From: Salegentibacter tibetensis
GTDB lineage: Bacteria; Bacteroidota; Bacteroidia; Flavobacteriales; Flavobacteriaceae
DNA: 64,000 nucleotides
NCBI RefSeq assembly: GCF_020164485.1
Contig: NZ_JAIQZA010000012.1
Span: 1 to 64,000 of the forward strand
Direction: 5' to 3'
Made by a program: the position numbers and the translations under genes. Below, piece by piece: positions 2,066 through 13,752 of the stretch. The notes below the pieces were generated by a model that searched no databases, was not told where the DNA came from, and worked only from the letters and a program-made list of their open reading frames with translations. The first letter of the stretch is position 1, and each line of letters opens with the position of its first letter.

Positions 2066-2164
2066 TTTTACTCGATAATCGAGATTTTAATGCTCCGAGG
2101 CTTGGCTCGAAATCAAGAATATTTTCCAGTAATGCCTCTTGGGGCTTGCCCCGAGGTAGTTTAC
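2066..2164 (+). repeat. ~100-bp dispersed palindromic element, copy A
   Basis: Begins with the palindrome CTCGATAATCGAG (2071-2083) and ends with GGGGCTTGCCCCGAGG followed by TAGTTTA. A second copy lies in opposite orientation at 33045-33146 and matches at both ends and through most of the middle. It fills most of the divergent intergenic region upstream of the ammonia-lyase. Confidence 0.85.
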
Positions 2165-2202
2165 TTAGTAATAAATATTCGTTCTAAATCTAAAATCAGC
2201 AA

Positions 2203-2233
2203 TTTTAAATACGGGCTAAATATAGTACATTTG
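2203..2233 (+). promoter_or_regulatory. Bacteroidota-type promoter of the pigment run
   Basis: TACATTTG (2226-2233) matches the -7 word TAnnTTTG. TTTT (2203-2206) stands 19 bp upstream at the -33 position (consensus TTTG). Transcription would start near 2238, just before the ATG at 2252. This excludes the much earlier in-frame ATG at 2090. Confidence 0.6.
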
Positions 2234-2251
2234 TTAAGATTCCTAAGAATA

Positions 2252-3793
2252 ATGAGGTCTATGCTCCAAATTAATGATTCCCTTAGCCTGGATGATTTTT
2301 ATAATGTTTTGTTTGAAAATACTGAAATTCAGTCTTCCTCACAGAGCCTTGAGAAAATCGAAGCCAGTTTTAAATTTCTAAACGAGTTTTCCCAGAATAA
2401 AGTTATTTATGGCGTAAACACCGGTTTTGGCCCCATGGCGCAATACAAAATTAAGAATAAAGACCGTATTCAGCTTCAGTATAATTTAATTCGAAGTCAT
2501 TCTTCAGGTTCCGGAAAAACAATGGAGCCGCTGTACGTAAAAGCTTTAATGCTCGCCCGTTTAAATACGCTTTCCTTAGGAAAATCTGGTGTTCACAAAT
2601 CGGTTGCTGAAGTTATGCAGCAACTTATCAATAAGAATATTACACCTTTAATTTTTGAACACGGTGGGGTAGGAGCTTCAGGAGATTTGGTGCAACTGGC
2701 GCATCTGGGACTGGTTTTAATCGGGGAAGGAGAAGTTTTTTATAAAGGTAAACGCTGCGAAACCAAAGCAGTTTTTTCCGAAGAAAATATTGATCCTATA
2801 GAAATTGAAATCAGGGAAGGCCTGGCTTTAATGAACGGCACTTCGGCAATGACGGGCATTGGGATTGTAAATATCATTTTCGCCAAACGCCTGCTTAACT
2901 GGTCGGTTTTTTGTTCTTCGGCGATCAATGAGATCGTTCAGGCATACGACGACCATTTATCTGAAGAGCTTAACTCCGCTAAAAAACATATAGGTCAGCA
3001 AAAGATCGCCGAAAAAATGAGAAATCATTTAAAAGACAGCAAACTTACCCGTGACCGTAATGAGCATTTGTACAACGATGCGGCCGATAAAAATACGTAT
3101 TTCGAAGAAAAAGTACAGGAATATTACAGTTTACGTTGTGTGCCGCAAATTCTCGGCCCTGTTTACGATACCCTGGAACATACCGCTAAAATTTTAATTG
3201 AAGAAGTAAATTCTGCCAACGATAATCCCATTATAGATGTGGAAAACAAGCACGTATATCACGGCGGAAATTTCCACGGGGATTATGTGGCTCTGGAAAT
3301 GGATAAATTAAAACTTGTTATCACTAAACTATCGATGCTTGCCGAACGCCAACTGAATTATTTACTGAACAATAAACTCAACGATATTCTACCTCCATTT
3401 GTGAATTTGGGAAAACTGGGCTTAAATTTCGGGATGCAGGGTGCGCAGTTTACCGCGGTTTCTACAACAGCCGAAAATCAGACGCTTTCTAATCCAATGT
3501 ATATTCATAGTATTCCCAACAATAACGACAATCAGGATATTGTGAGTATGGGCACTAACGCAGCCAATATCACAAAAACCGTTATCGACAATGCTTTTGA
3601 GGTACTTTCGGTCGAAATTATTACTATTGTTCAGGCTTTGCGTTATCTGGATTTTGATGAACAACTCTCGCAAAAGACCCGGGAGATTTTGGAAGAAATG
3701 AACAAAATAATTCCAGAAATAAAAGAAGATTTCCCATTGTATAAAATCAATGCCGAAGTAAAGAATTATCTCAAGAGTAACGAAGTTTATTAA
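2252..3793 (+). CDS. Tyrosine (aromatic amino acid) ammonia-lyase
   Basis: 513 aa enzyme of the HAL/PAL/TAL family. The Ala-Ser-Gly triad that cyclises to the MIO cofactor is at residues 142-144 in GGVGASGDLVQLAH. Family motifs VIYGVNTGFGP, NSANDNPI and GTNAANIT are also visible. It closely resembles the flexirubin-cluster TAL of Flavobacterium johnsoniae as I remember it, including the His in LIRSHSSG that favours tyrosine (or histidine) over phenylalanine. Expected role: tyrosine to 4-coumarate plus ammonia, the starter of aryl polyene synthesis. The frame is open back to 2090, but that stretch is repeat and promoter; ATG 2252 (or 2261) fits homologue length. The histidine-specific alternative is less likely here because of the polyketide neighbours. 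Confidence 0.9.
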   Translation: MRSMLQINDSLSLDDFYNVLFENTEIQSSSQSLEKIEASFKFLNEFSQNKVIYGVNTGFGPMAQYKIKNKDRIQLQYNLIRSHSSGSGKTMEPLYVKALMLARLNTLSLGKSGVHKSVAEVMQQLINKNITPLIFEHGGVGASGDLVQLAHLGLVLIGEGEVFYKGKRCETKAVFSEENIDPIEIEIREGLALMNGTSAMTGIGIVNIIFAKRLLNWSVFCSSAINEIVQAYDDHLSEELNSAKKHIGQQKIAEKMRNHLKDSKLTRDRNEHLYNDAADKNTYFEEKVQEYYSLRCVPQILGPVYDTLEHTAKILIEEVNSANDNPIIDVENKHVYHGGNFHGDYVALEMDKLKLVITKLSMLAERQLNYLLNNKLNDILPPFVNLGKLGLNFGMQGAQFTAVSTTAENQTLSNPMYIHSIPNNNDNQDIVSMGTNAANITKTVIDNAFEVLSVEIITIVQALRYLDFDEQLSQKTREILEEMNKIIPEIKEDFPLYKINAEVKNYLKSNEVY

Positions 3794-3800
3794 GAATGTC

Positions 3801-3822
3801 AGGTCGAGCGCAGTCGAGACCT
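3801..3822. repeat. Small REP-like hairpin
   Basis: AGGTC (3801-3805) and GACCT (3818-3822) flank GAGCGCAGTCGA, the GCAGTCGA core also found at 19692-19713. It lies between the ammonia-lyase and the ketoreductase and could attenuate or stabilise the transcript. Confidence 0.5.
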
Positions 3823-3842
3823 AACTGAAACCTAAAAATTCA

Positions 3843-4574
3843 ATGAAATACGCCCTAATCACCGGTGCTTCCCGCGGAATTGGAAAAGCGATTGCCCTAA
3901 ACCTGGCAAAGGAGCTGGGCTATAATATTTTGCTGAATTTCCATTCCAATACCGATGCTGCTACCGCTACTAAAGAGCTTATAGAAGCTGAAGGGGTAAA
4001 TTGCAAATTGCTTCAATTTGATGTGGCTGATGCTGAAAAAACTACAAAAACACTGAAAGATTTCAGCAAAAATAATCCTGATGCAGAAATTGAAGTAATT
4101 GTGAATAATGCAGGGATTACCCGCGACGGACTTTTTATGTGGATGAAACCGGAAGATTGGCACTCGGTAATCAATACCAGCTTAAACGGTTTTTACAATG
4201 TAACGCAACCCTTGATAAAAAATATGCTGAAACGCCGTTATGGTCGCATTATTAATATCGTCTCCCTTTCTGGATTAAAAGGCAATGCCGGGCAGGTGAA
4301 TTATTCTGCGGCAAAAGGAGCGATGGTTGCTGCCACTAAAGCCCTGGCGCAGGAAATAGGGAAAAGAAAGGTTACCGTAAATGCCGTTGCACCGGGTTTT
4401 GTCACTTCAGACATGACAGCCGATTTTGATGAAAACGAACTTAAAAAATTAATTCCCTTAAACCGTTTTGGCGAAGCCGAAGAAGTAGCCAATCTGGTAA
4501 GTTTCCTGGCTTCTAAAAAAGCTTCTTATATTACCGGTGAGGTAATAAATATTAACGGCGGACTCTATTCTTAA
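3843..4574 (+). CDS. 3-oxoacyl-ACP reductase (FabG-like)
   Basis: 243 aa short-chain dehydrogenase/reductase. The NADPH site TGASRGIG is at residues 7-14, NNAG at 88-91, and the catalytic Ser141, Tyr154 and Lys158 lie in VNYSAAKGA. The C-terminus ITGEVININGGLYS is typical of FabG. It should reduce the beta-keto group after each condensation in polyene chain growth, the role of ApeQ in aryl polyene clusters. Only 3 bp separate it from the next gene, so the two are co-transcribed. Cytosolic. Confidence 0.9.
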   Translation: MKYALITGASRGIGKAIALNLAKELGYNILLNFHSNTDAATATKELIEAEGVNCKLLQFDVADAEKTTKTLKDFSKNNPDAEIEVIVNNAGITRDGLFMWMKPEDWHSVINTSLNGFYNVTQPLIKNMLKRRYGRIINIVSLSGLKGNAGQVNYSAAKGAMVAATKALAQEIGKRKVTVNAVAPGFVTSDMTADFDENELKKLIPLNRFGEAEEVANLVSFLASKKASYITGEVININGGLYS

Positions 4575-4577
4575 ATT

Positions 4578-5456
4578 ATGGCGAATTGGAAGGGACAATC
4601 GCGCGGTACCGTGGTGGGATTGAGAATTTACGTTTTCATCATCAAAACTTTCGGGCTTTACGTTTCCTATTTTGTTCTTCTTTTTGTGGCGCTCTATTTT
4701 GTGTTTTTCGCGTTTAATTCTACCAAAAGTGTTTATTATTTGTTCAGAAAACGCCTGGGCTATTCCAGTTTCAAAGCAGCTTTTAGTGTTTATAAAAGCT
4801 ATTTCACTTTCGGAAAGATTCAACTAGACCGAATAGCTATCGCTTCTGGATTAAAACATAAATATAGCTTTGAGTTTGATGGGATTCACCACATTGAAAA
4901 TTTACTGGAACAGAAAAAAGGCGGGATCTTACTTACCGCACACATTGGAAATTTCAATCTTGCCAAACATTTTTTTGATGATAAGAACAATCATCAAATT
5001 GTAAACCTTGTGGTTACTGATTTAGAACACGAAGAGATAAAAAATTACCTGGACTCAGTAACTGGTAAGTCGGCTATAAAACTTATCGTTTTAAAAGACG
5101 ATCTTTCCCATATTTTTGAAATGAACAAAGCGCTTCAAAACAACGAACTTCTTGTTTTTGCCGCCGATCGTTATATCGAAAATGCCAAAACTTTTACTCA
5201 TAATTTTATGGGGGAAGCGGTGAGATTTCCGCAGGGACCCTTTAAACTGGCAGCGCGTAATAAAATTCCAGTATTGTTTGTACACATTATGAGGGAGAAG
5301 AATTTTCATTATCATTTCTATGCCAGGCCTTATAATCCTGAGAAAAATGATGCAAAAATTCTATTAAAAGCTTATCTTGAAAACCTGGAAACTATGTTAA
5401 AAAAGTATCCGCATCAATGGTATAATTATTACGATTACTGGAACGATTTCAGCTAA
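4578..5456 (+). CDS. LpxL/HtrB-type lipid acyltransferase
   Basis: 292 aa protein with an N-terminal membrane segment (about 26-46), then the lysophospholipid acyltransferase fold. The HX4D/E block appears as AHIGNFN: His122 is present, but the acidic residue is Asn127. The later blocks MGEAVRFPQGPFKLA and IPVLFVHIMRE match the family. Aryl polyene and flexirubin loci carry such a protein, thought to attach the acyl chain to a lipid or resorcinol acceptor at the inner membrane. The Asn is odd and may lower or change catalysis. Stop and start are 3 bp from the gene before and 9 bp from the gene after. Confidence 0.82.
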   Translation: MANWKGQSRGTVVGLRIYVFIIKTFGLYVSYFVLLFVALYFVFFAFNSTKSVYYLFRKRLGYSSFKAAFSVYKSYFTFGKIQLDRIAIASGLKHKYSFEFDGIHHIENLLEQKKGGILLTAHIGNFNLAKHFFDDKNNHQIVNLVVTDLEHEEIKNYLDSVTGKSAIKLIVLKDDLSHIFEMNKALQNNELLVFAADRYIENAKTFTHNFMGEAVRFPQGPFKLAARNKIPVLFVHIMREKNFHYHFYARPYNPEKNDAKILLKAYLENLETMLKKYPHQWYNYYDYWNDFS

Positions 5457-5465
5457 AAACAGCTT

Positions 5466-5915
5466 ATGGCAGAAAATTTACTCAAAGACCCGATTTTAGA
5501 ATTAGATCGAATTTTAGAATTAATTCCGCAGAAACCGCCCTTTGTGATGGTAGATAGTTTGCTGGAATACACCGAGAAAACTGGAACCACCGGCTTCACC
5601 ATACCTAAAAATAATATTTTGGTAGAAGATGCTAATTTTTCTGAACCAGGACTTATTGAGCATATGGCACAAAGTATGTCGCTTTGGCGCGGTTATCAGG
5701 GATTTTTAAGCGGACTTGACAAGCCAAAAACGGGGTTTATAGGAGCGATTAAAAATGTGGAAATCTTGGAACTTCCAAAAGCCGGCAGCAAACTGGTGAC
5801 TTATGTGGAAATTTTGCAGGAGTTTATGAACGTTACCTCTGTTGGCGCACGTACTCTAGATGAAGAAGGAAAGCTTTTAGCCACTTCAGAAATGAAAACC
5901 GTTACCGTAGACTGA
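5466..5915 (+). CDS. Hotdog-fold 3-hydroxyacyl-ACP dehydratase subunit (ApeP-like)
   Basis: 149 aa hotdog protein of the FabZ/ApeP kind. The opening LIPQKPPFVMVD (19-30) and the helix PGLIEHMAQSMSLWRGYQ are clear. Glu65 of IEHMAQ matches the FabZ catalytic Glu, but the GHFP block that should carry the catalytic His is absent and the loop is shortened to ANFSEPG. The other dehydratase in this locus (12121) has the His but not the Glu, so the two probably form one working heterodimer. Role: dehydration of 3-hydroxyacyl-ACP to extend the conjugated polyene. Confidence 0.83.
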   Translation: MAENLLKDPILELDRILELIPQKPPFVMVDSLLEYTEKTGTTGFTIPKNNILVEDANFSEPGLIEHMAQSMSLWRGYQGFLSGLDKPKTGFIGAIKNVEILELPKAGSKLVTYVEILQEFMNVTSVGARTLDEEGKLLATSEMKTVTVD

Positions 5916-6015
5916 TTTTTCGAATAAAATTTAGATAAAGTTTCGTAAGCCTAGATTTTTTGGTTCGTTTTTTTATCGATGGAAAAAATGAACACTATTA
6001 TTAAATTAAAACAAA

Positions 6016-6435
6016 ATGCTGGAAAAATCCTTAACCACAATTACAAATCTAAGGGTTCGTTTTCACGAATGTGATCCCCTGCAAATTGTATGGCACGGCA
6101 ATTACCTGAAGTATTTTGAAGAGGGACGCGAAGATTTTGGTAGGGAACACGGTATTTCCTATCTCGATGCCCAGGCAGAAGGCTTTTCCACGCCCATTGT
6201 AAAATCTCTTTGTGAACATAAATTACCATTAAAATACAGCGATGCGTTTCGGGTGGAAACCACTTTTATAAATTCTGAAGCCGCAAAAATAAATTTCACA
6301 TATAAAATCTTTAAAGGAGAAAATCTGATTTGTACCGGGGAAACCTTACAGGTTTTTCTGGATGAAAACCAGGAATTGGTGTTAAATAATCCGCCGTTTT
6401 TCTTAGATTGGAAAAAGAAAATGAAGCTGCTTTAA
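6016..6435 (+). CDS. YbgC / 4-hydroxybenzoyl-CoA thioesterase family protein
   Basis: 139 aa hotdog thioesterase. The N-terminal block RFHECDPLQIVWHGNYLKYFEE holds Asp20 at the catalytic position of the 4HBT family, followed by the helix GREDFGREHGISYLD. In aryl polyene loci the equivalent (ApeK) is proposed to release or proofread acyl intermediates. It follows a 100-bp gap with no clear promoter and ends one base inside the next start (TAATG), so translation is coupled to the ketosynthase. Confidence 0.85.
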   Translation: MLEKSLTTITNLRVRFHECDPLQIVWHGNYLKYFEEGREDFGREHGISYLDAQAEGFSTPIVKSLCEHKLPLKYSDAFRVETTFINSEAAKINFTYKIFKGENLICTGETLQVFLDENQELVLNNPPFFLDWKKKMKLL

Positions 6436-7580
6436 TGAAGAATCTCTACCTGTTAGATGATGCGATTATTTCTCCACTTGGATTTTCTATAGAAGAAAAT
6501 ATCCAGGCGATTCGTGAGGGGAGGTCAGGTTTAAAACTTCAGCAAAAACCTGAAATTACCGAAAATCCTTTTTTTGCCGGAATTATTGATGAATCACTTT
6601 TAAACCAAACTTTTTCAGAAATTGGAGCTACTGAAGATTTCACCAAACTGGAAAAAATGATCCTACTGGCAGTAAAGCAGATTTTAGATAAAAATATAAA
6701 CCTGGATCTAACTGAAACCGCTCTAATCATTGCTACAACTAAAGGCAACATCAACCTTTTAAAAGAACCCGGTGATTTTCCTGAAAACCGGTTAAAATTA
6801 GGCCAATTGGGAAAAGTTGTCGCTAATTTTTTTGGTTTTATCCAAACCCCTATAATTGTTTCCAACGCCTGTATTTCGGGTGGTTTGGGACTCGCAGTAG
6901 CAAGAAGGCTGTGTGATTCAGGAAAAATTAAAAATGCTATTGTAGTAGGAGCCGATTTAGTTAGTGACTTTGTGATCTCTGGTTTTAATTCTTTCCAGGC
7001 TTTAAGCGCTGAGGCCTGCAGGCCTTTTTCCAAAGATCGTGATGGGATAAGCCTGGGTGAAGCAGCAGCCGCTATTTTGGTAAGTACTGAAAAACCTAAA
7101 ATTTCAGGAGTTATTAACTTAATTGGCGACGCTTCAGCTAATGATGCAAACCATATTTCAGGACCGTCCCGGACCGGGAAAGGATTGTATAAAAGCATTC
7201 AAAAAGTCCTAAAAGAGGCTTCGATTTCCTCAGAAGAAATCGGTTTTTTATCAGCGCACGGCACGGCTACGGTGTATAATGATGAGATGGAAAGTATGGC
7301 TTTTCACCGTTCCGGTTTAGAGGAAACACCACTCCATAGCTTAAAGGGCTTTTACGGGCATACGCTGGGTGCTTCGGCTTTAATAGAAAGCATTATCACC
7401 AAACATTCAATGTTGAATAATGAATTATTTGCTTCTAAAAATTTCGGGGAATTGGGCGTTTCGAAACCACTAAATGTTATTCGAGAAAATCAGAAACAGG
7501 AAATCAGTTATGCATTAAAAACCGCATCTGGTTTTGGTGGCTGCAACCTGGCTTTGATTTTTAAAGCGGAAAAAAAATAA
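6435..7580 (+). CDS. Beta-ketoacyl-ACP synthase (FabF-type), catalytic triad intact
   Basis: 381 aa condensing enzyme. Cys146 in SNACISGG, His275 in SAHGTAT and His309 in GFYGHTLGAS form the complete KAS I/II triad. GFGGCNLALIF closes the fold. The frame is open to 6408, but ATG 6435 overlaps the upstream stop and gives the right N-terminus. In the pathway it elongates the aryl starter with malonyl-ACP. It may pair with the small Cys-less protein encoded immediately downstream, 1 bp away. Confidence 0.88.
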   Translation: MKNLYLLDDAIISPLGFSIEENIQAIREGRSGLKLQQKPEITENPFFAGIIDESLLNQTFSEIGATEDFTKLEKMILLAVKQILDKNINLDLTETALIIATTKGNINLLKEPGDFPENRLKLGQLGKVVANFFGFIQTPIIVSNACISGGLGLAVARRLCDSGKIKNAIVVGADLVSDFVISGFNSFQALSAEACRPFSKDRDGISLGEAAAAILVSTEKPKISGVINLIGDASANDANHISGPSRTGKGLYKSIQKVLKEASISSEEIGFLSAHGTATVYNDEMESMAFHRSGLEETPLHSLKGFYGHTLGASALIESIITKHSMLNNELFASKNFGELGVSKPLNVIRENQKQEISYALKTASGFGGCNLALIFKAEKK

Positions 7581-7581
7581 A

Positions 7582-8196
7582 ATGCCAAATCAATTTTACA
7601 TACAGGATTGGATTAAGATTAAAAATGGTGCAATTTTTAATTCAGAAGAGTCGGTTTTTGCATTTTCGGAAGATGAATTAAATCCATTTCTAAAAGCTGC
7701 CTACGACAATTTGAAGCTGGAATATCCTAAATTCCATAAAATGGACGGACTGTCGAAATTAGGAATTTTGGCTTCTGAAATTATTTTCAGAAAAAATAAA
7801 GCAACAAAAGATACTGCTCTGGTGTTCTCCAACAATGCTTCCAGTTTGGAAACCGACAGGCAGTTTCAGGACAGTACAAAGACTTTTGCCTCGCCTTCAC
7901 TTTTCGTTTATACCCTGCCAAACATTGTTTTGGGGGAGATAAGCATTAAGTTTAAGTTGCAAAGCGAGAATGCTTTTTTTATTTCTGAAAATTTTAATGC
8001 CGAATTGTTACAGAGTTATACCGAATCTTTATTGCTTTCAGAAAAAGCCCCCGAAGTGCTTTGTGGCTGGTTAGACTTGCAAAATGGCGAATATGATGTA
8101 TTTTTGTGCCTGGTTTCAAAGGAAAAGAATATTCCATTTTCCGAAGAAAACCTCAAAAAAATATATTGCGCTGAAAATGAAAAACCTACACACTGA
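7582..8196 (+). CDS. Short ketosynthase-like protein without active-site Cys
   Basis: 204 aa. The block FASPSLFVYTLPNIVLGEISIKF (residues 102-124, read in two parts) is the conserved strand-loop-helix of Cys-less beta-ketoacyl synthase-like partners in aryl polyene and flexirubin loci. No ACS/ACSS nucleophile and no catalytic His blocks are present, and the chain covers only about half a thiolase fold. It probably acts as a structural or chain-length partner, as ApeC does for ApeO. Its last 20 bases overlap the ACP gene. The family name rests on pattern recognition and context. Confidence 0.65.
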   Translation: MPNQFYIQDWIKIKNGAIFNSEESVFAFSEDELNPFLKAAYDNLKLEYPKFHKMDGLSKLGILASEIIFRKNKATKDTALVFSNNASSLETDRQFQDSTKTFASPSLFVYTLPNIVLGEISIKFKLQSENAFFISENFNAELLQSYTESLLLSEKAPEVLCGWLDLQNGEYDVFLCLVSKEKNIPFSEENLKKIYCAENEKPTH

Positions 8197-8434
8197 ACTT
8201 AAAGAAAGTATCATCGAGCAACTCAACCTGGAAGATATGGAACCCGCCGATATTGGCAACGAGGAACCGCTTTTTGGCGATGGCCTTGGCCTGGATTCCA
8301 TAGACGCGCTGGAGCTTATTGTGCTTTTGGAAAAAGATTACGGGATAAAACTTACCGATCCTACCCAGGGCAAGGAGATTTTTGTTTCCATAGACCGAAT
8401 GGCGACCTATATAGAAGAAAACCGAACGAAATAG
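8177..8434 (+). CDS. Acyl carrier protein
   Basis: 85 aa, helical and acidic, with the phosphopantetheine site Ser41 in GLGLDSIDALEL (DSID instead of the usual DSLD/DSLE). ATG 8177 lies inside the end of the preceding gene and gives normal ACP length; the longer open frame from 8084 is an overlap. It carries the growing polyene between the ketosynthases, reductase and dehydratase. It is the only ACP seen in the locus, while E. coli-type aryl polyene clusters have two. Confidence 0.9.
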   Translation: MKNLHTELKESIIEQLNLEDMEPADIGNEEPLFGDGLGLDSIDALELIVLLEKDYGIKLTDPTQGKEIFVSIDRMATYIEENRTK

Positions 8435-8437
8435 TTT

Positions 8438-9628
8438 ATGAATAAAGCTGTTGCCATTACCGGAATGGGGATTATTTCTGCTATTGGCAACGACACCGGG
8501 GAGAACTATCGCTCTTTAATTTTAGGAAAACACGGAATTTCTTCTCCTGAAATCCTTAAAACAATCCATCGGGATTTACCGGTTGGGGAAATTAAAATTT
8601 CCAATGAAACTCTTGCTCAAGATTTAAACCTTCCCAAAAATCATAGTTTTACACGGGCAGCCCTACTGGGAGCCTTTGCCGTTAGCGAAGCTATAACTCA
8701 ATCTAAGCTGAAAATAGATGGGGGGACTGGGTTTATTTCAGGAACCAGCGTAGGCGGAATGGATGCTACCGAAACTTATTTTAAAGAATTTACGGAAGGA
8801 AAAGCGGAGAACAGCAGATTTATCCGAGCGCAACATCCAGGATTTACAACTGAAATAATCGCTGAACACTTTGGGATTACGGGATTTGTAAGTACGATAA
8901 GTACTGCCTGTTCCTCAGGAGCTAACGCGATTATGCTGGGTGCCAGGATGATTAAAGCTGGAAAACTAAAGCGTGTAATTGTTGGCGGAACAGATTGCCT
9001 TACCAAGTTTACACTCAACGGATTTAATTCGTTAATGATTTTATCTGATGAGCATTGCAAACCCTTTGATGAAAACCGCAACGGCTTAAATCTTGGCGAA
9101 GGCGCTGCTTATCTGGTTTTAGAAGCCGAAGAAGAGCTAAATGTAAAACCGGTTTTAGGTAGGATTTCGGGATATGGGAATGCCAATGATGCATTTCACC
9201 AAACCGCGTCCTCGGAAAATGGGGAAGGGGCATTTTTAGCGATGCAAAAAGCCATGAAAACCGCTGGGATTTCTTCGGAAAAAATAGATTATATAAACGC
9301 TCATGGAACTGCAACTAAAAATAATGATAGTGCAGAAGCTAAAGCCTTAAAGCGAATTTTTTTTAAAAATTCACCCGATTTTAGTTCTACGAAAGCTTTT
9401 ACTGGGCATACTTTAGCTGCGGCGGGAGCATTGGAAGCGGTTTATAGCCTGTTATCAATTCAACACCAAGAGGTTTTTGCCAATCTCAATTTTTCCGACC
9501 CAATGGACAGTTCAGGTTTTATCCCCGTAACTCAATTAAAAGCGAAACCTATAGATCACGTACTTTCCAACTCTTTTGGGTTTGGAGGAAATTGTACTTC
9601 ATTAATTTTTAGTAAAAATGGAGAATAA
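8438..9628 (+). CDS. Beta-ketoacyl-ACP synthase (FabF-type), second copy
   Basis: 396 aa condensing enzyme with a full triad: Cys158 in STACSSGANA, His289 in NAHGTAT and His324 in FTGHTLAAAG. The C-terminus ends NSFGFGGNCTSLIF. It differs clearly from the first ketosynthase, so the two are probably not interchangeable. One may prime with coumaroyl and the other extend, or each may pair with a different Cys-less partner. It lies 3 bp after the ACP gene and overlaps the next gene by 11 bp. Confidence 0.88.
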   Translation: MNKAVAITGMGIISAIGNDTGENYRSLILGKHGISSPEILKTIHRDLPVGEIKISNETLAQDLNLPKNHSFTRAALLGAFAVSEAITQSKLKIDGGTGFISGTSVGGMDATETYFKEFTEGKAENSRFIRAQHPGFTTEIIAEHFGITGFVSTISTACSSGANAIMLGARMIKAGKLKRVIVGGTDCLTKFTLNGFNSLMILSDEHCKPFDENRNGLNLGEGAAYLVLEAEEELNVKPVLGRISGYGNANDAFHQTASSENGEGAFLAMQKAMKTAGISSEKIDYINAHGTATKNNDSAEAKALKRIFFKNSPDFSSTKAFTGHTLAAAGALEAVYSLLSIQHQEVFANLNFSDPMDSSGFIPVTQLKAKPIDHVLSNSFGFGGNCTSLIFSKNGE

Positions 9629-10682
9629 AATATACATTAACGGGATTGGTAGTATTTCGGCACAGCCCGGGGATGTGATTTCCTGGGAAGCGGCAAGGCT
9701 TTATCACGAGAATATCTTCCCGGCAATTTCACCAAATTATAAGGAGTTTATAAAACCTATGGCTTTAAGGCGAATGTCTCAAGCGATAAAAATGGGGATA
9801 ACTTCGGCGAAAATTGCTTTAAATGAAGCAGAGATTGAAATCCCCGAAGCAATTATTACCGGGACCGGCGAAGGTTGTAAACAGGACACCGAAAAATTCC
9901 TGGAGAATTTGCTGGATCAGGATGAAAAATTATTGACCCCGACTTCCTTTATTCAATCTACCCACAACACTATTGGCGGGCAAATCGCTTTGAATTTGGG
10001 CTGCAAGAATTATAATGTAACCTACACCCAAAATTCTGTTTCCCTAGAAACGGCTTTTTTAGATGCCCAAATGCAATTCAGTGAAAATCCTGAGATAAAT
10101 TCGGTTCTGGTTGGGGGAGTAGATGAGATTTCGGAAAAAATCACATCTTTCAGAAAACTCGATGGGCAATTAAAACCGGACCCAATTAAAAATACTGATT
10201 TACTGAAGGAAGATTCGACGGGCACGATTACTTCAGAAGGGGCACACTTTTTCGCCCTGTCAAAAGAAAAAAAGCAAAATACTTACGCTGAATTTCAAAG
10301 TGTGTTCATGAAAAATTCCATTCAGCCAGAGAAAATCAATGATGAAATAGAAGCTTTTCTAAAAATAAATAAACTGGATTTAGCAGCTGTAGATACGGTG
10401 ATTTTAGGTATTAATGGTGATAACCGGTATGACCATTATTATAAAAATCCTCAAGAAAAGCTGTTTAAAAATACAACGCAACTAGCCTATAAACATTTAA
10501 TTGGCGATTTTGATACGGCTTCGGGCTATGCGGTCTATCTGGCTGCCAATATTTTAAAATCTGGAGAGATTCCTGAAATTCTTAAGCTAAATAAGTTAGA
10601 ATGTAGTGTTCCTAAGACCATTCTTATTTACAATCAGTATCTTGGCAGGGATCACAGTTTAATCTTACTCAGTGCGGTTTAA
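9618..10682 (+). CDS. Ketosynthase-like chain-length-factor candidate (Cys to Ser)
   Basis: 354 aa protein with the N-terminal KS layout (NGIGSIS, later GEGCKQD and SFIQSTHNTIGGQIAL). At the nucleophile position the sequence reads YTQNSVSLETAF, so a Ser (about residue 140) stands where KAS enzymes have Cys. The catalytic His blocks HGT and GHT are not recognisable. By analogy with type II polyketide KS-beta subunits and ApeC, it probably forms a heterodimer with an active KS and shapes the tunnel that sets chain length. It overlaps both neighbours by 11 bp, a sign of tight co-expression. Confidence 0.72.
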   Translation: MENKIYINGIGSISAQPGDVISWEAARLYHENIFPAISPNYKEFIKPMALRRMSQAIKMGITSAKIALNEAEIEIPEAIITGTGEGCKQDTEKFLENLLDQDEKLLTPTSFIQSTHNTIGGQIALNLGCKNYNVTYTQNSVSLETAFLDAQMQFSENPEINSVLVGGVDEISEKITSFRKLDGQLKPDPIKNTDLLKEDSTGTITSEGAHFFALSKEKKQNTYAEFQSVFMKNSIQPEKINDEIEAFLKINKLDLAAVDTVILGINGDNRYDHYYKNPQEKLFKNTTQLAYKHLIGDFDTASGYAVYLAANILKSGEIPEILKLNKLECSVPKTILIYNQYLGRDHSLILLSAV

Positions 10683-11442
10683 AATTATAAACACGGTTGT
10701 TGTCCTTCTGCTTTTCGCGGGTTTGGTGCTGGCGTTTTTTGGTTTTGCCTCATTTTGGTACGTATTAACTTTTATTTTTTTCTACCTGCTTTTTTTGCTG
10801 ACTGTATCTACAAATGTTCGGTTTAATTTTTTTGTAAACTCTATTAGTGAAAACCGAAAAATTAAAGAAAAACAAATCGCCATTAGTTTTGATGACGGTC
10901 CGGTAGAAAATACCCTTGAAATTTTGAAGGTTTTGGAAAAGTACAACGCGCAAGCCGGGTTTTTCTGTATAGGGAAAAACATTAAAAAGCACCCGGGAAT
11001 TTTTAAAGAGATTATAGAAAAAGGTCATTTTGTAGGCAACCATACTTATAGCCATACCAGAAAAATGGGAGCTCTAAGCGTATCAACCATTGTGAGGGAG
11101 ATTGAAGCCTGCAATAAAATTGCTGAAGAGACAGCCGGAATAACGATGAAACTCTTTAGACCTCCTTTCGGAATTGTAAGTCCAAAAACGCAGAAGGCGC
11201 TTCAGGAAACCGGGATGCAATCCATAGGTTGGAGCATTAGATCCTTTGATGCGGTGCTTTCTTCTGAAGAAATTGTTTTAGAACGAATCAAAAAAAGGCT
11301 TAGGCCGGGAGCGGTTATCCTTTTGCACGATAATAATGCTAAAACCGTTAACATACTGGAACAGTTGTTGCTATTTTTGAAAAATAATCAATATGAGGTT
11401 GTAAGGCCTGATAAATTACTGGAAATCAATGCGTATTCTTAA
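10672..11442 (+). CDS. Membrane-anchored polysaccharide deacetylase family protein
   Basis: 256 aa with a GTG start. Two hydrophobic segments (about 7-46) anchor a NodB-homology domain. ISFDDGP supplies Asp74/Asp75, and HTYSH (124-128) supplies the metal His pair. RPPFG and LLHDN are also present, so the catalytic set of carbohydrate esterase family 4 looks complete. Its substrate in a pigment locus is unknown; a sugar or amide on the lipid carrier is possible. It overlaps the preceding gene by 11 bp and the LolA gene by 14 bp. Confidence 0.85.
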   Translation: MRFKIINTVVVLLLFAGLVLAFFGFASFWYVLTFIFFYLLFLLTVSTNVRFNFFVNSISENRKIKEKQIAISFDDGPVENTLEILKVLEKYNAQAGFFCIGKNIKKHPGIFKEIIEKGHFVGNHTYSHTRKMGALSVSTIVREIEACNKIAEETAGITMKLFRPPFGIVSPKTQKALQETGMQSIGWSIRSFDAVLSSEEIVLERIKKRLRPGAVILLHDNNAKTVNILEQLLLFLKNNQYEVVRPDKLLEINAYS

Positions 11443-12049
11443 TATTCTCCTTCTGTTTTTAAGTCTGAATCTGGTAGCTCAGGAAGAACTTTCCAAAGAG
11501 GAGGTTACTAAATTTCAAGAAGAAATGCTGGCAAAAGCCAATAAACTTGAAACTTTGGAAGCTGATTTTGTTCAAACAAAGAAAATTGAAATGATCACGG
11601 AGGAATCTGTAAGCCGCGGAAAACTTTATTACCAAAATCCTGAAAAACTAAAATGGGAGTATGCTGAACCGCAGGATTATATCATTTTGTTTATAGAAGG
11701 TGAACTTCATATCAATGATGCCGGGGATAAAAGTGTGAGAAATACCAATTCTAATAAACTTTTTGATAAAATTGCTAAACTTATTACGGGAAGTGTGAAT
11801 GGAAAATTGCTCCAGGATAATGAGAATTTTGATATTTCTTTCACCCGCGAAAACGATCTGGTTTCTGCTTTAATAATTCCGAAAGATAAAAATTTAAAAG
11901 CGATGTTTGCTGAGATCCATTTGCTTTTTAATGGGGAGAATATTGTAGAGCAGGTAAATTTAATGGAAGAATCCGGTGACGCAACGATTATTGAATTCAG
12001 TAATATTAGTATCAATCGGGATATACCTGCAACCGTATTTGAGCCATAA
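11429..12049 (+). CDS. LolA-type outer-membrane lipoprotein carrier
   Basis: 206 aa periplasmic protein with signal peptide MRILNILLLFLSLNLVAQ, then the LolA beta-sheet motifs (LEADFVQTKKIEM, GKLYYQNPEKLKWEY, GELHIND). Aryl polyene loci encode a dedicated LolA-like protein, thought to ferry the lipid-linked pigment across the periplasm together with the MMPL exporter. It overlaps the deacetylase gene by 14 bp. It is probably a pathway-specific paralogue and not the housekeeping LolA, judging from context. Confidence 0.85.
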   Translation: MRILNILLLFLSLNLVAQEELSKEEVTKFQEEMLAKANKLETLEADFVQTKKIEMITEESVSRGKLYYQNPEKLKWEYAEPQDYIILFIEGELHINDAGDKSVRNTNSNKLFDKIAKLITGSVNGKLLQDNENFDISFTRENDLVSALIIPKDKNLKAMFAEIHLLFNGENIVEQVNLMEESGDATIIEFSNISINRDIPATVFEP

Positions 12050-12120
12050 ATTGTTTCTAAAAGCTTAAAAATGCTAAATTTTCTGTGTAATTTAGTCCTG
12101 TACCAACAACCAGCCAATAC

Positions 12121-12492
12121 ATGTTATTAAAGAATTTTTATTCTGTTTTAGATTCTTCAGAGAAAGACGATAAAAATATCACTCAAATAAAGATCAATAA
12201 AGACCACGCTATTTACGATGGGCATTTCCCCGGAAGGCCGGTAACTCCAGGCGTTATTTTAATGAATTTGTTTAAAGAAGAAGCGGAGCGCCGTTGTGCT
12301 TGTAAACTTCAGTTTAAAAAAGGGAATAACGTGAAATTTATGGCTGTGGTAGATCCAAATACCGATGCAATTTTAAATCTTGAAACTGAAATTACGGAGG
12401 AAAATCAGGAAATAAAACTTAAAGGTATCGCTAAAAATTCTGCCGGTATTTCATTGAAAATCAACTCTATTTATAAAAAAGTTGAATCTTAA
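12121..12492 (+). CDS. FabZ/ApeI-like 3-hydroxyacyl-ACP dehydratase subunit
   Basis: 123 aa hotdog protein. DGHFPGRPVTPGV (33-45) carries His35, the FabZ catalytic His. The catalytic Glu expected 14 residues later is Asn49 (ILMNLFKEE). The upstream hotdog gene at 5466 has the Glu but lacks the His. In FabA and FabZ dimers the His and the acid come from different protomers, so a heterodimer of these two would contain one complete active site. It follows a 71-bp gap and closes the first transcription block. Confidence 0.82.
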   Translation: MLLKNFYSVLDSSEKDDKNITQIKINKDHAIYDGHFPGRPVTPGVILMNLFKEEAERRCACKLQFKKGNNVKFMAVVDPNTDAILNLETEITEENQEIKLKGIAKNSAGISLKINSIYKKVES

Positions 12493-12503
12493 ACTTTTAA
12501 GAG

Positions 12504-12533
12504 TTTGTGCTTTACTTTTTAATTTTACTTTTG
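12504..12533 (+). promoter_or_regulatory. Internal promoter for the export/finishing genes
   Basis: TTTG (12504-12507), an 18-bp spacer and TACTTTTG (12526-12533) match the Bacteroidota -33/-7 promoter (TTTG, TAnnTTTG) without mismatch. The predicted transcript begins near 12538, about 15 nt before the TTG start at 12553. It would let the GT-MMPL-Ntn-ligase block be transcribed separately. Confidence 0.65.
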
Positions 12534-12552
12534 CAAATAAAGCCATTTTGAT

Positions 12553-13752
12553 TTGAACCACGAACCAATACATCAGTCTAGATTTGAAGCTTTAAATTGT
12601 TGTATTATAATTCCTACTTATAACAACGAAAAAAGTCTGGGTAGCGTTTTACAGGATTTACTGTTATATACCTCTAATCTTTTGGTGATTAATGATGGTT
12701 CTACCGATGCTACTAAAGAAATACTCAAAGATTTTTCTGAAATAAATATTCAACATTTTGATGAAAACAGGGGTAAGGGCGAAGCATTAAAAAAAGGCTT
12801 TAAAATTGCCGAGGATCTTGGCTACGAATATGCAATAACCATAGATTCAGACGGGCAGCATTATCCTGATGATCTGGATGTTTTTCTTAGTCATTTGGAA
12901 GAGAAAAATCCTGATTCTGAAATTTTACTGGTTGGAGACCGTAATATGGGCCAGGACGGCATTCCTGGAAAAAGTACCACCGGAAATAAGTTTTCCAATT
13001 TCTGGTTTTTGGTAGTAACCGGTACCCAGCTCACCGACACCCAAAGCGGTTACAGACTTTATCCTTTAAAAGTGATTAACCAGATAAAACTTTATACCAA
13101 TAAGTTTGAGCTTGAAATCGAGATTATTGTAAAAGCTGCCTGGCGTAAAGTTAAGGTGAGAAATGTGCCGATAAAGGTTTTTTATGAAGAAGACCGGGTT
13201 ACGCATTTTCGACCTTTTTGGGATATCACCAGGATTACGCTACTTTATATCTGGTTTGTTTTGGTGAGTTTTTTCTATATCCATCCGCGAGATACGTACC
13301 AGGATTTTAGAAAGAAAGGCTATAAGCGTTTCTGGAAAGAAAATATTGTTAAAAGTCAGGAGCCGGCACATAAAAAAGCGGCAGCGATTGCATTGGGCGT
13401 TTTTGTTGGGATTTTACCATTTTGGGGTTTACATACATTATTGGTGTTTAGTTTGGCTGCAATGTTTAAACTCAATAAAGTAGTAGCTTTTTTATTCAGC
13501 AATATTAGCATTCCACCATTAATTCCGTTTATTATTTACGCCAGTTATCAAGCCGGATCTTTGCTCACCGGCCGCGGACTGGCCTGGGAATTAAGACCGG
13601 AAGATTTTGATTCTACAGCCGATATTTTTCTTGGCTTATGGCAGTATATCATTGGTAGTTTTGCCCTGGCAGGAATCGTCGCGCTACTGCTATGGATTGT
13701 GTTTTATTTCTTATTTTCGGTAACAAACCAAAAACAGGTGGTAAAACCTTAA
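12553..13752 (+). CDS. Glycosyltransferase family 2 with DUF2062 membrane domain
   Basis: 399 aa with a TTG start. The N-terminal GT-A domain is of the dolichyl-phosphate mannose synthase type: CIIIPTYNNE, VINDGSTDAT and TIDSDGQHYPDD (nucleotide-sugar and metal site), plus DTQSGYRLYP. A TM segment follows near 225-242. The C-terminal DUF2062 segment (AAAIALGVFVGILPFWGLHT onward) has two or three more TM helices. GT2-DUF2062 fusions are common in aryl polyene and flexirubin loci. It may glycosylate the pigment lipid or its carrier at the inner membrane. The next gene starts directly after the stop. Confidence 0.85.
   Translation: MNHEPIHQSRFEALNCCIIIPTYNNEKSLGSVLQDLLLYTSNLLVINDGSTDATKEILKDFSEINIQHFDENRGKGEALKKGFKIAEDLGYEYAITIDSDGQHYPDDLDVFLSHLEEKNPDSEILLVGDRNMGQDGIPGKSTTGNKFSNFWFLVVTGTQLTDTQSGYRLYPLKVINQIKLYTNKFELEIEIIVKAAWRKVKVRNVPIKVFYEEDRVTHFRPFWDITRITLLYIWFVLVSFFYIHPRDTYQDFRKKGYKRFWKENIVKSQEPAHKKAAAIALGVFVGILPFWGLHTLLVFSLAAMFKLNKVVAFLFSNISIPPLIPFIIYASYQAGSLLTGRGLAWELRPEDFDSTADIFLGLWQYIIGSFALAGIVALLLWIVFYFLFSVTNQKQVVKP

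Follow-up and report, generated by a model that had tools for sequence, protein, structure and literature searches.

A likely split-site dehydratase couple in the flexirubin cluster of Salegentibacter tibetensis and its retention in genomes that appear to have lost the polyene synthase

The residues of a single FabA active site come from different subunits, and the FabA and FabZ dimers superpose with conserved catalytic dyads, according to the available text of PMC2698920. ApeI and ApeP of the aryl-polyene cluster are described in the accessible part of PMC8041823 as heterodimeric dehydratases with a single active site; with this heterodimer in print, the split-site principle is already known for the aryl-polyene family. 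In the flexirubin cluster of Chitinophaga pinensis, FlxF and FlxS were proposed as dehydratases, and the available portion of PMC3992019 is silent on any split active site or heterodimer. Among the matches listed by a search of the open literature, with most subscription papers outside its scope, none dealt with a split site in the dehydratases of flexirubin pathways. The present analysis concerns two hotdog proteins, here P1 and P2, encoded in 64,000 nucleotides of Salegentibacter tibetensis (RefSeq assembly GCF_020164485.1, contig NZ_JAIQZA010000012.1, positions 1 to 64,000). This whole stretch is the window, and its positions 2090-13752 are a flexirubin (aryl-polyene) cluster.

P1 and P2 are likely to form an obligate ApeP/ApeI-like heterodimeric dehydratase of this cluster, acting on 3-hydroxyacyl-acyl carrier protein (ACP) at one composite site. 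The proposed hotdog dimer would open at two tunnel mouths. The first would bring His35 of P2 up to Glu65 of P1, and the growing polyene-ACP would be dehydrated there. At the other, the Asn of P2 (usually Gln in relatives) would meet a shortened P1 loop that has no conserved His, and no reaction would occur. As neither homodimer would have the canonical His-acid pair, the enzyme should work only as a couple. Dimerisation, site geometry, activity and substrate are predictions from sequence. The proteins and the codons at issue are as follows.

5466 to 5915, plus strand: P1, hotdog dehydratase subunit of ApeP-like type that has Glu and lacks the FabZ His, 149 amino acids
5658 to 5660, plus strand: codon of P1 Glu65, at the FabZ catalytic-acid position in alignments with FabZ
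12121 to 12492, plus strand: P2, ApeI-like hotdog dehydratase subunit with His and without an acid at His+14, 123 amino acids
12223 to 12225, plus strand: codon of P2 His35, at the FabZ catalytic-His position, invariant in 53 of 53 alignment rows and 81 of 81 sequences
12265 to 12267, plus strand: codon of P2 Asn49 (His+14), Glu in FabZ, with residues counted in 81 sequences
12277 to 12279, plus strand: codon of P2 Glu53 (His+18), a conserved acid one helical turn later, with residues counted in 81 sequences

P1 carries the motif PGLIEHMAQ, and both family and profile alignments set Glu65 on the FabZ catalytic Glu. Relatives of P1 and P2 were gathered from 42 loci and from further genomes, and the counts given for them are of sequences related by descent rather than of independent events. 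Among 117 distinct P1-type sequences, tandem paralogues included, the Glu is kept in every one and the E..AQ motif is invariant; the invariant positions of a 68-row alignment are Glu65 (68/68), Ala68, Gln69 and Pro104. The loop of P1 lacks five residues relative to that of FabZ, which makes the place of the FabZ His in P1 ambiguous. In the family alignment this position is a gap in all 117 sequences, and a profile alignment with the FabZ of the type III polyketide synthase (PKS) cluster of the same genome sets the FabZ His opposite Asn57, at Glu-8. No conserved His was found in the P1 loop, where any position has His in at most 9 of 117 sequences. A conserved His elsewhere in P1 was also rejected, as no column of the 68-row alignment exceeds 60% His; the nearest His-rich position is Glu+1 (His 70, Asn 47 of 117). 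A conserved His is therefore absent from the P1 family, though single P1 proteins have one nearby. One pairwise local alignment placed EHMAQ of P1 opposite GHFP of the FabZ domain of an LpxC-FabZ fusion, a pairing that a profile comparison of P1 with the same domain did not reproduce. P1 scores below the cut-offs of the FabZ models NCBIfam NF000582 (E 2.2e-5, 24.4 of 113 bits) and TIGR01750 (17.4 of 155 bits).

The motif stretch of P2, GHFPGRPVTPGVILMN, includes His35, and an ungapped alignment with LpxC-FabZ sets Asn49 opposite the catalytic Glu. This His is kept in all 81 distinct P2-type sequences, one of which reads SHFP, and the invariant positions of a 53-row alignment are His35, Phe36, Pro37, Gly44 and Pro79. 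At His+14 the residue is Gln in 66, His in 7, Asn in 6 and Glu in 2, and hence is not an acid in all but the last two. Asn at this position is a local state: distinct P2 sequences of Salegentibacter loci have Asn in four cases, His in four and Gln in four, and in other genera Gln is the sole residue (Gillisia 8/8, Zunongwangia 3/3) or, when Christiangramia is pooled with Gramella, makes up 12 sequences against 2 with His. The codons observed (CAA/CAG for Gln, CAT/CAC for His, AAT/AAC for Asn) make single-base steps from Gln through His to Asn possible. A P2 tree, made by a quick method, with 28 of its 50 inner branches weak and a long-branch warning, has at least six changes at His+14 and places the cluster-less genomes discussed below beside cluster-keeping relatives. 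Two plasmid-borne relatives in Bacteroidota have Gln (Aureispira) and Phe (Persicobacter) at His+14. P2 matches Pfam FabA over its cut-off (1.1e-6) and stays below those of the FabZ models NF000582 (28.6 of 113 bits) and TIGR01750 (29.4 of 155 bits).

A further feature of the P2 family is a nearly invariant Lys-Glu at His+17/+18 (window 12274-12279), where FabZ has Ala-Gln. Lys occupies His+17 in 77 of 81 sequences, and both FabZ proteins of the genome have Gln at the position equivalent to His+18 (EAMAQ and ECMAQ), so that the E..AQ of FabZ becomes Q..KE in the P2 family. The acid at His+18 might be structural, might bind ACP or might be a relocated catalytic acid.

P1 and P2 occur together. 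A P1 profile at E<=1e-8 had matches in 42 of 395 genomes of a phylum sample; five were set aside as LpxC-FabZ-like by frame length (466-503 amino acids), as was G428, a weak match of FabZ length, leaving 36 genomes including that of the window. P2 was found at E<=1.1e-11 in all 32 P1-positive genomes tested from this sample. No strong P2 turned up in any of 20 genomes belonging to the same family and drawn from the 353 that lack a P1 match; 12 of them had weak matches only (best 1.1e-5), mostly at FabZ-like frames, and eight had none. A second set, which covers the other three phylum-sample genomes besides the window's own, had P2 at E<=2.7e-26 in 17 of 18 P1-positive genomes, and the sole miss, G029, is 84% complete and in 350 contigs. 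Moreover, the two genes lie on the same strand in 60 of 60 loci that have both, a count in which some places were fetched twice and which holds 54 distinct P2 sequences.

Profile comparisons assign the two proteins to different Ape partners. Against the E. coli proteins, the P1 family profile hits ApeP (96.7%, E 3.6e-10), with the two Glu residues aligned, and misses ApeI (0.3%); the P2 family profile hits ApeI (96.4%, E 1.1e-9), with the two His residues aligned, and misses ApeP (0.9%). The P1 and P2 profiles do not match each other (hhalign 0.3%). In the Protein Data Bank (PDB) entry 6qsr, chain A is ApeI-like and chain B is ApeP-like. Family matches in Pfam at E<=0.01 were ApeP-like for 3 of 68 P1-type members and ApeI-like for 33 of 53 P2-type members. 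Chance similarity to FabZ was rejected for both proteins by a shuffling test, in which 500 randomised versions of either sequence all scored lower than the real one.

The assignment of the surrounding genes to a flexirubin cluster follows from FlxA and FlxB, both over their cut-offs, in company with an ACP, ketosynthases and a chain-length factor. The gene order is FlxA, FlxB, an acyltransferase, P1, a thioesterase-like protein, two ketosynthases, an unannotated protein, the ACP and the chain-length-factor-like protein, followed by a polysaccharide deacetylase, LolA, P2 and a glycosyltransferase/DUF2062 protein, with an MMPL protein next. From this order, P1 would correspond to FlxF and P2 to FlxS.

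2090 to 3793, plus strand: FlxA tyrosine ammonia-lyase (NCBIfam NF053541, 875 bits, cut-off 700, match from residue 65); the true start is probably downstream of the listed one
3843 to 4574, plus strand: FlxB SDR ketoreductase (NCBIfam NF053542, 405 bits, cut-off 340)
6016 to 6435, plus strand: acyl-CoA thioesterase-like protein, a third hotdog-type protein outside the pair (Pfam 4HBT_2; TIGR00051 over cut-off)
8174 to 8434, plus strand: acyl carrier protein, start picked by eye (Pfam PP-binding, 2.3e-9)
8438 to 9628, plus strand: ketosynthase with active-site Cys motif TACSSG (Pfam ketoacyl-synt; motif by eye)
9618 to 10682, plus strand: chain-length-factor-like ketosynthase without the active-site Cys (Pfam Ketoacyl-synt_2; motif by eye)
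12553 to 13752, plus strand: glycosyltransferase 2 with DUF2062, adjoining P2; cluster-less genomes retain it along with the pair (Pfam; neighbourhood)

The protein at 7582-8193 (204 amino acids) has no Pfam or NCBIfam match; the gene at this place is labelled "hypothetical" in one plasmid record (L194) and is ketosynthase N-terminal-like in another (L195). FlxA is over its cut-off in 38 of 41 P1-positive genomes, as compared with 0 of 20 P1-negative ones. The exceptions are G403, G407 and G450. Two of these, G403 and G407 (loci L172 and L175), have adjacent P1 and P2 genes and Glu at His+14 of P2, possibly an intermediate state.

Additional evidence that P1 and P2 belong together comes from genomes that keep the pair and little else of the cluster. 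The distance from P1 to P2 is 6.0-7.8 kb in 33 of 42 loci, with seven to nine matched cluster-gene stretches between them, and within 0.72 kb in four; no P2 was met before the end of the locus in the other five. The four close-pair loci belong to Salegentibacter LH_M81, S. sediminis, S. flavus and Christiangramia bathymodioli; LH_M81 is a metagenome-assembled genome, and its counterpart genome G008 is 61% complete. P1, P2 and the glycosyltransferase gene lie close together at the following cluster-less places.

L038, L039 (10001-12162): P1, P2 and glycosyltransferase
L040 (3877-6019): P1, P2 and glycosyltransferase
L072 (10001-15757): P1, P2 and glycosyltransferase

The three cluster-less Salegentibacter keep P1, P2 and the glycosyltransferase, and C. 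bathymodioli keeps P1, LolA, P2, the glycosyltransferase and MMPL. With the window protein as a genome-wide query, 12 of 15 Salegentibacter genomes gave a chain-length factor, and the three that did not (G001, G003 and G008) are exactly the cluster-less ones; FlxA was over its cut-off in the same 12, and weaker ammonia-lyase matches occurred in all 15. A separate search found the chain-length factor in 19 of 21 genomes. The two misses are C. bathymodioli (G451), where FlxA is below its cut-off, and G452, whose P1 contig, of 5 kb, still has ketosynthase and ACP genes. Two lineages, one of three Salegentibacter genomes and one of C. bathymodioli, thus appear to have lost the polyene synthase and kept P1, P2 and the glycosyltransferase gene.

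In the three cluster-less Salegentibacter, P1 and P2 are intact and their changes are, per site, mostly silent. The ratio of nonsynonymous to synonymous change (dN/dS) among these genomes is 0.04-0.07 for P1 and 0.04-0.06 for the glycosyltransferase, indicating strong constraint on both, and, for P2, 0.31-0.36 in one calculation and 0.30-0.40 in another (Fisher p 0.012, 3e-4 and 5e-5), a weaker but real constraint. Since dN/dS of P2 between other species is 0.07-0.22 where unsaturated, silent divergence to other species being mostly saturated, constraint on P2 may be relaxed in the cluster-less genomes. These ratios cover the three Salegentibacter only, and some of the constraint that they record could be older than the loss of the cluster. 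Since P1 is internal to the cluster, keeping it takes losses to either side of it, in two genera. P2, the glycosyltransferase and MMPL are grouped at the opposite end, where position may account for their survival. On the simplest interpretation, P1 and P2 serve each other and are of use independently of the polyene. About an even chance attaches to the reading that the pair acts as a half-site dehydratase in its own right, with another role beyond the pigment, which in cluster-less genomes would be fatty-acid or envelope-lipid synthesis.

Several findings weigh against a composite P1:P2 site, and three rival explanations draw on some of them. P2 has an acid at His+18 in 80 of 81 sequences (Glu 78, Asp 2, Gln 1), which could replace the lost one. 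P2 could then be a self-sufficient homodimer with its acid moved to Glu53 and with P1 as an accessory partner that docks ACP or shapes the substrate. The Lys at His+17 also favours this reading, the well-kept Gln at His+14 is in keeping with a helix that is not simply decaying, and simple decay of His+14 is weakened as an account of P2 by the Gln and by the His+18 acid alike. Such a homodimer is nevertheless unlikely, given that the invariant Glu and E..AQ of P1 would be unexpected in a mere scaffold and that both P2 proteins with Glu at His+14 also carry the His+18 acid, which is therefore not simply a substitute. The Persicobacter relative, with Phe at His+14, has Asn at His+18 (by eye). One helical turn is about 6 Å, a distance that also counts against the relocated acid. 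On the P1 side, 6 of 117 relatives carry His at Glu-8, where the FabZ His could also be placed, and two of them read GHF. These two are Gillisia proteins (L048, L049) and reflect perhaps chance, perhaps a regained His. The genome also holds two intact FabZ-type proteins with both His and Glu, an LpxC-FabZ fusion and a FabZ near a type III PKS gene, which could supply the activity and leave P1 and P2 non-catalytic. The strict conservation of two catalytic residues, one per partner, makes this very improbable. The host used to express the E. coli aryl-polyene cluster comes with FabA and FabZ of its own. The second of the two complete FabZ proteins (L081, G000 contig C24 near 86490) lies about 22 kb past the end of the window on the same contig, beside an apparent type III polyketide synthase gene (by eye).

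Pairing may also be more complex in many relatives, where a second Glu-only P1-type protein is encoded beside P1. This tandem gene occurs in many other flexirubin clusters (L016-L022, L024, L025, L112-L135, L182-L186, L188-L190), and its product has the Glu and no conserved His; a search of the Salegentibacter tibetensis genome found no second P1-type gene. Together with the three hotdog-type proteins of the cluster (5466, 6016 and 12121), these paralogues would allow P1 and P2 each to join a mixed dimer with some other hotdog protein, an arrangement that the co-occurrence and joint survival of the pair and the ApeI/ApeP precedent leave with hardly any probability. Kinship to Ape is likewise less exclusive than the partner assignments suggest. 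The FabZ proteins of the genome match about as well, both for P1 (LpxC-FabZ 95.8%, E 8e-9; other FabZ 87.8%) and for P2 (LpxC-FabZ 96.8%, E 2.2e-10; other FabZ 96.4%). For P1, searches of PDB rank FabZ chains (1.8e-8) above 6qsr chain B (1.2e-4), and for P2 they rank FabZ (1.6e-6) above 3esi (0.0022) and 6qsr chain A (0.027). Both proteins also score under the Pfam gathering cut-offs, P1 with 11.4 of 27 bits for ApeP-like PF22817 and P2 with 22.1 of 28.5 bits (1.9e-4) for ApeI-like PF22818. A closer kinship of the two proteins with Ape than with FabZ was consequently not borne out, and the comparisons indicate which Ape subunit each resembles rather than that Ape is closer than FabZ. The composite-site model for P1:P2 is preferred because of the complementary invariants, the co-occurrence, the matched Ape pairing, the 6qsr chains, the printed precedents, the shared strand and the joint survival. 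Sequences, conservation, co-occurrence, the ApeP-versus-ApeI match and the shared strand and cluster are the observed part of this case.

A sequence-only reading of the window had proposed much of this. It described the protein at 5466 as keeping Glu in IEHMAQ without a GHFP His, and the protein at 12121 as keeping the GHFP His with Asn 14 residues later; both descriptions, coordinates included, hold in the window, the split itself is conserved across the two families, and the alignments that it called for, with FabZ, ApeI and ApeP, put Glu and His in separate proteins. Its premise that His and acid come from different protomers is backed for FabA by the available text of PMC2698920. The predicted heterodimer with one complete and one dead site draws support from the FabA/FabZ dyads in the same text and, like the ApeI/ApeP parallel, from the single-site heterodimer in the accessible part of PMC8041823. 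The aryl-polyene cluster type was also correctly recognized. The supposed clean loss of one catalytic half per subunit stands for the canonical positions, which are split, and is qualified by the conserved P2 acid one helical turn on. Subfunctionalisation at this locus found no support: since P1 and P2 lack a mutual match and P1 goes with ApeP and P2 with ApeI, the two halves look older than this cluster. Taken together, the mechanism proposed there is probably right, with less that is new in the split than claimed and more in the cluster-less genomes.

The new elements are the extension of the half-site split to flexirubin clusters and the survival of P1 with P2 in four genomes of two genera that lack the chain-length factor and a FlxA over its cut-off. 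A couple without a polyene synthase points to a function beyond pigment, which the cluster annotation does not suggest. Each subunit lacks the other's catalytic residue at the canonical place, and activity should therefore need both. For cross-subunit catalysis in hotdog dehydratases the pair would thus be a complementation test provided by nature, in which one composite site could be studied without the background of a second. Enzymes of this kind might be recognised by a sequence rule, in which a Glu protein lacking His neighbours a His protein lacking the acid.

Comparison with known systems places P1:P2 among several partial parallels. FabZ and FabA share the hotdog family, and the His and acid of one FabA site lie on different subunits; unlike P1 and P2, each has both residues in one chain and forms homodimers or hexamers with two sites per dimer. 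Mycobacterial HadAB is a heterodimeric dehydratase with one working site, as proposed for P1:P2, whereas both of its catalytic residues are in HadB and the site is not shared between subunits. FlxF and FlxS are two predicted dehydratase genes in a cluster of the same kind, as described in the available text of PMC3992019. ApeI:ApeP (PDB 6qsr; E. coli CFT073; Acinetobacter) likewise combines two different hotdog subunits of an aryl-polyene cluster, ApeP resembling P1 in having Glu and no GHF-His, and ApeI resembling P2 in having the GHF-His. In contrast to P2, with Gln, His or Asn at His+14 in 79 of 81 sequences, ApeI has Asp there in 13 of 13 sampled (E. coli, PDB 3esi, 6qsr_A and 10 of 10 further proteobacterial matches, these being 10 of 25 plasmid records listed and including three Cupriavidus and three Pseudoalteromonas), a feature of the sampled ApeI proteins rather than a published definition. 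Loss of this acid, itself new, leaves neither P1 nor P2 alone with the canonical pair, which an ApeI homodimer could still have by sequence, and makes the split cleaner than in ApeI/ApeP. P1:P2 would accordingly be a variant of the ApeI/ApeP kind in working principle, without strict membership of the Ape families being implied.

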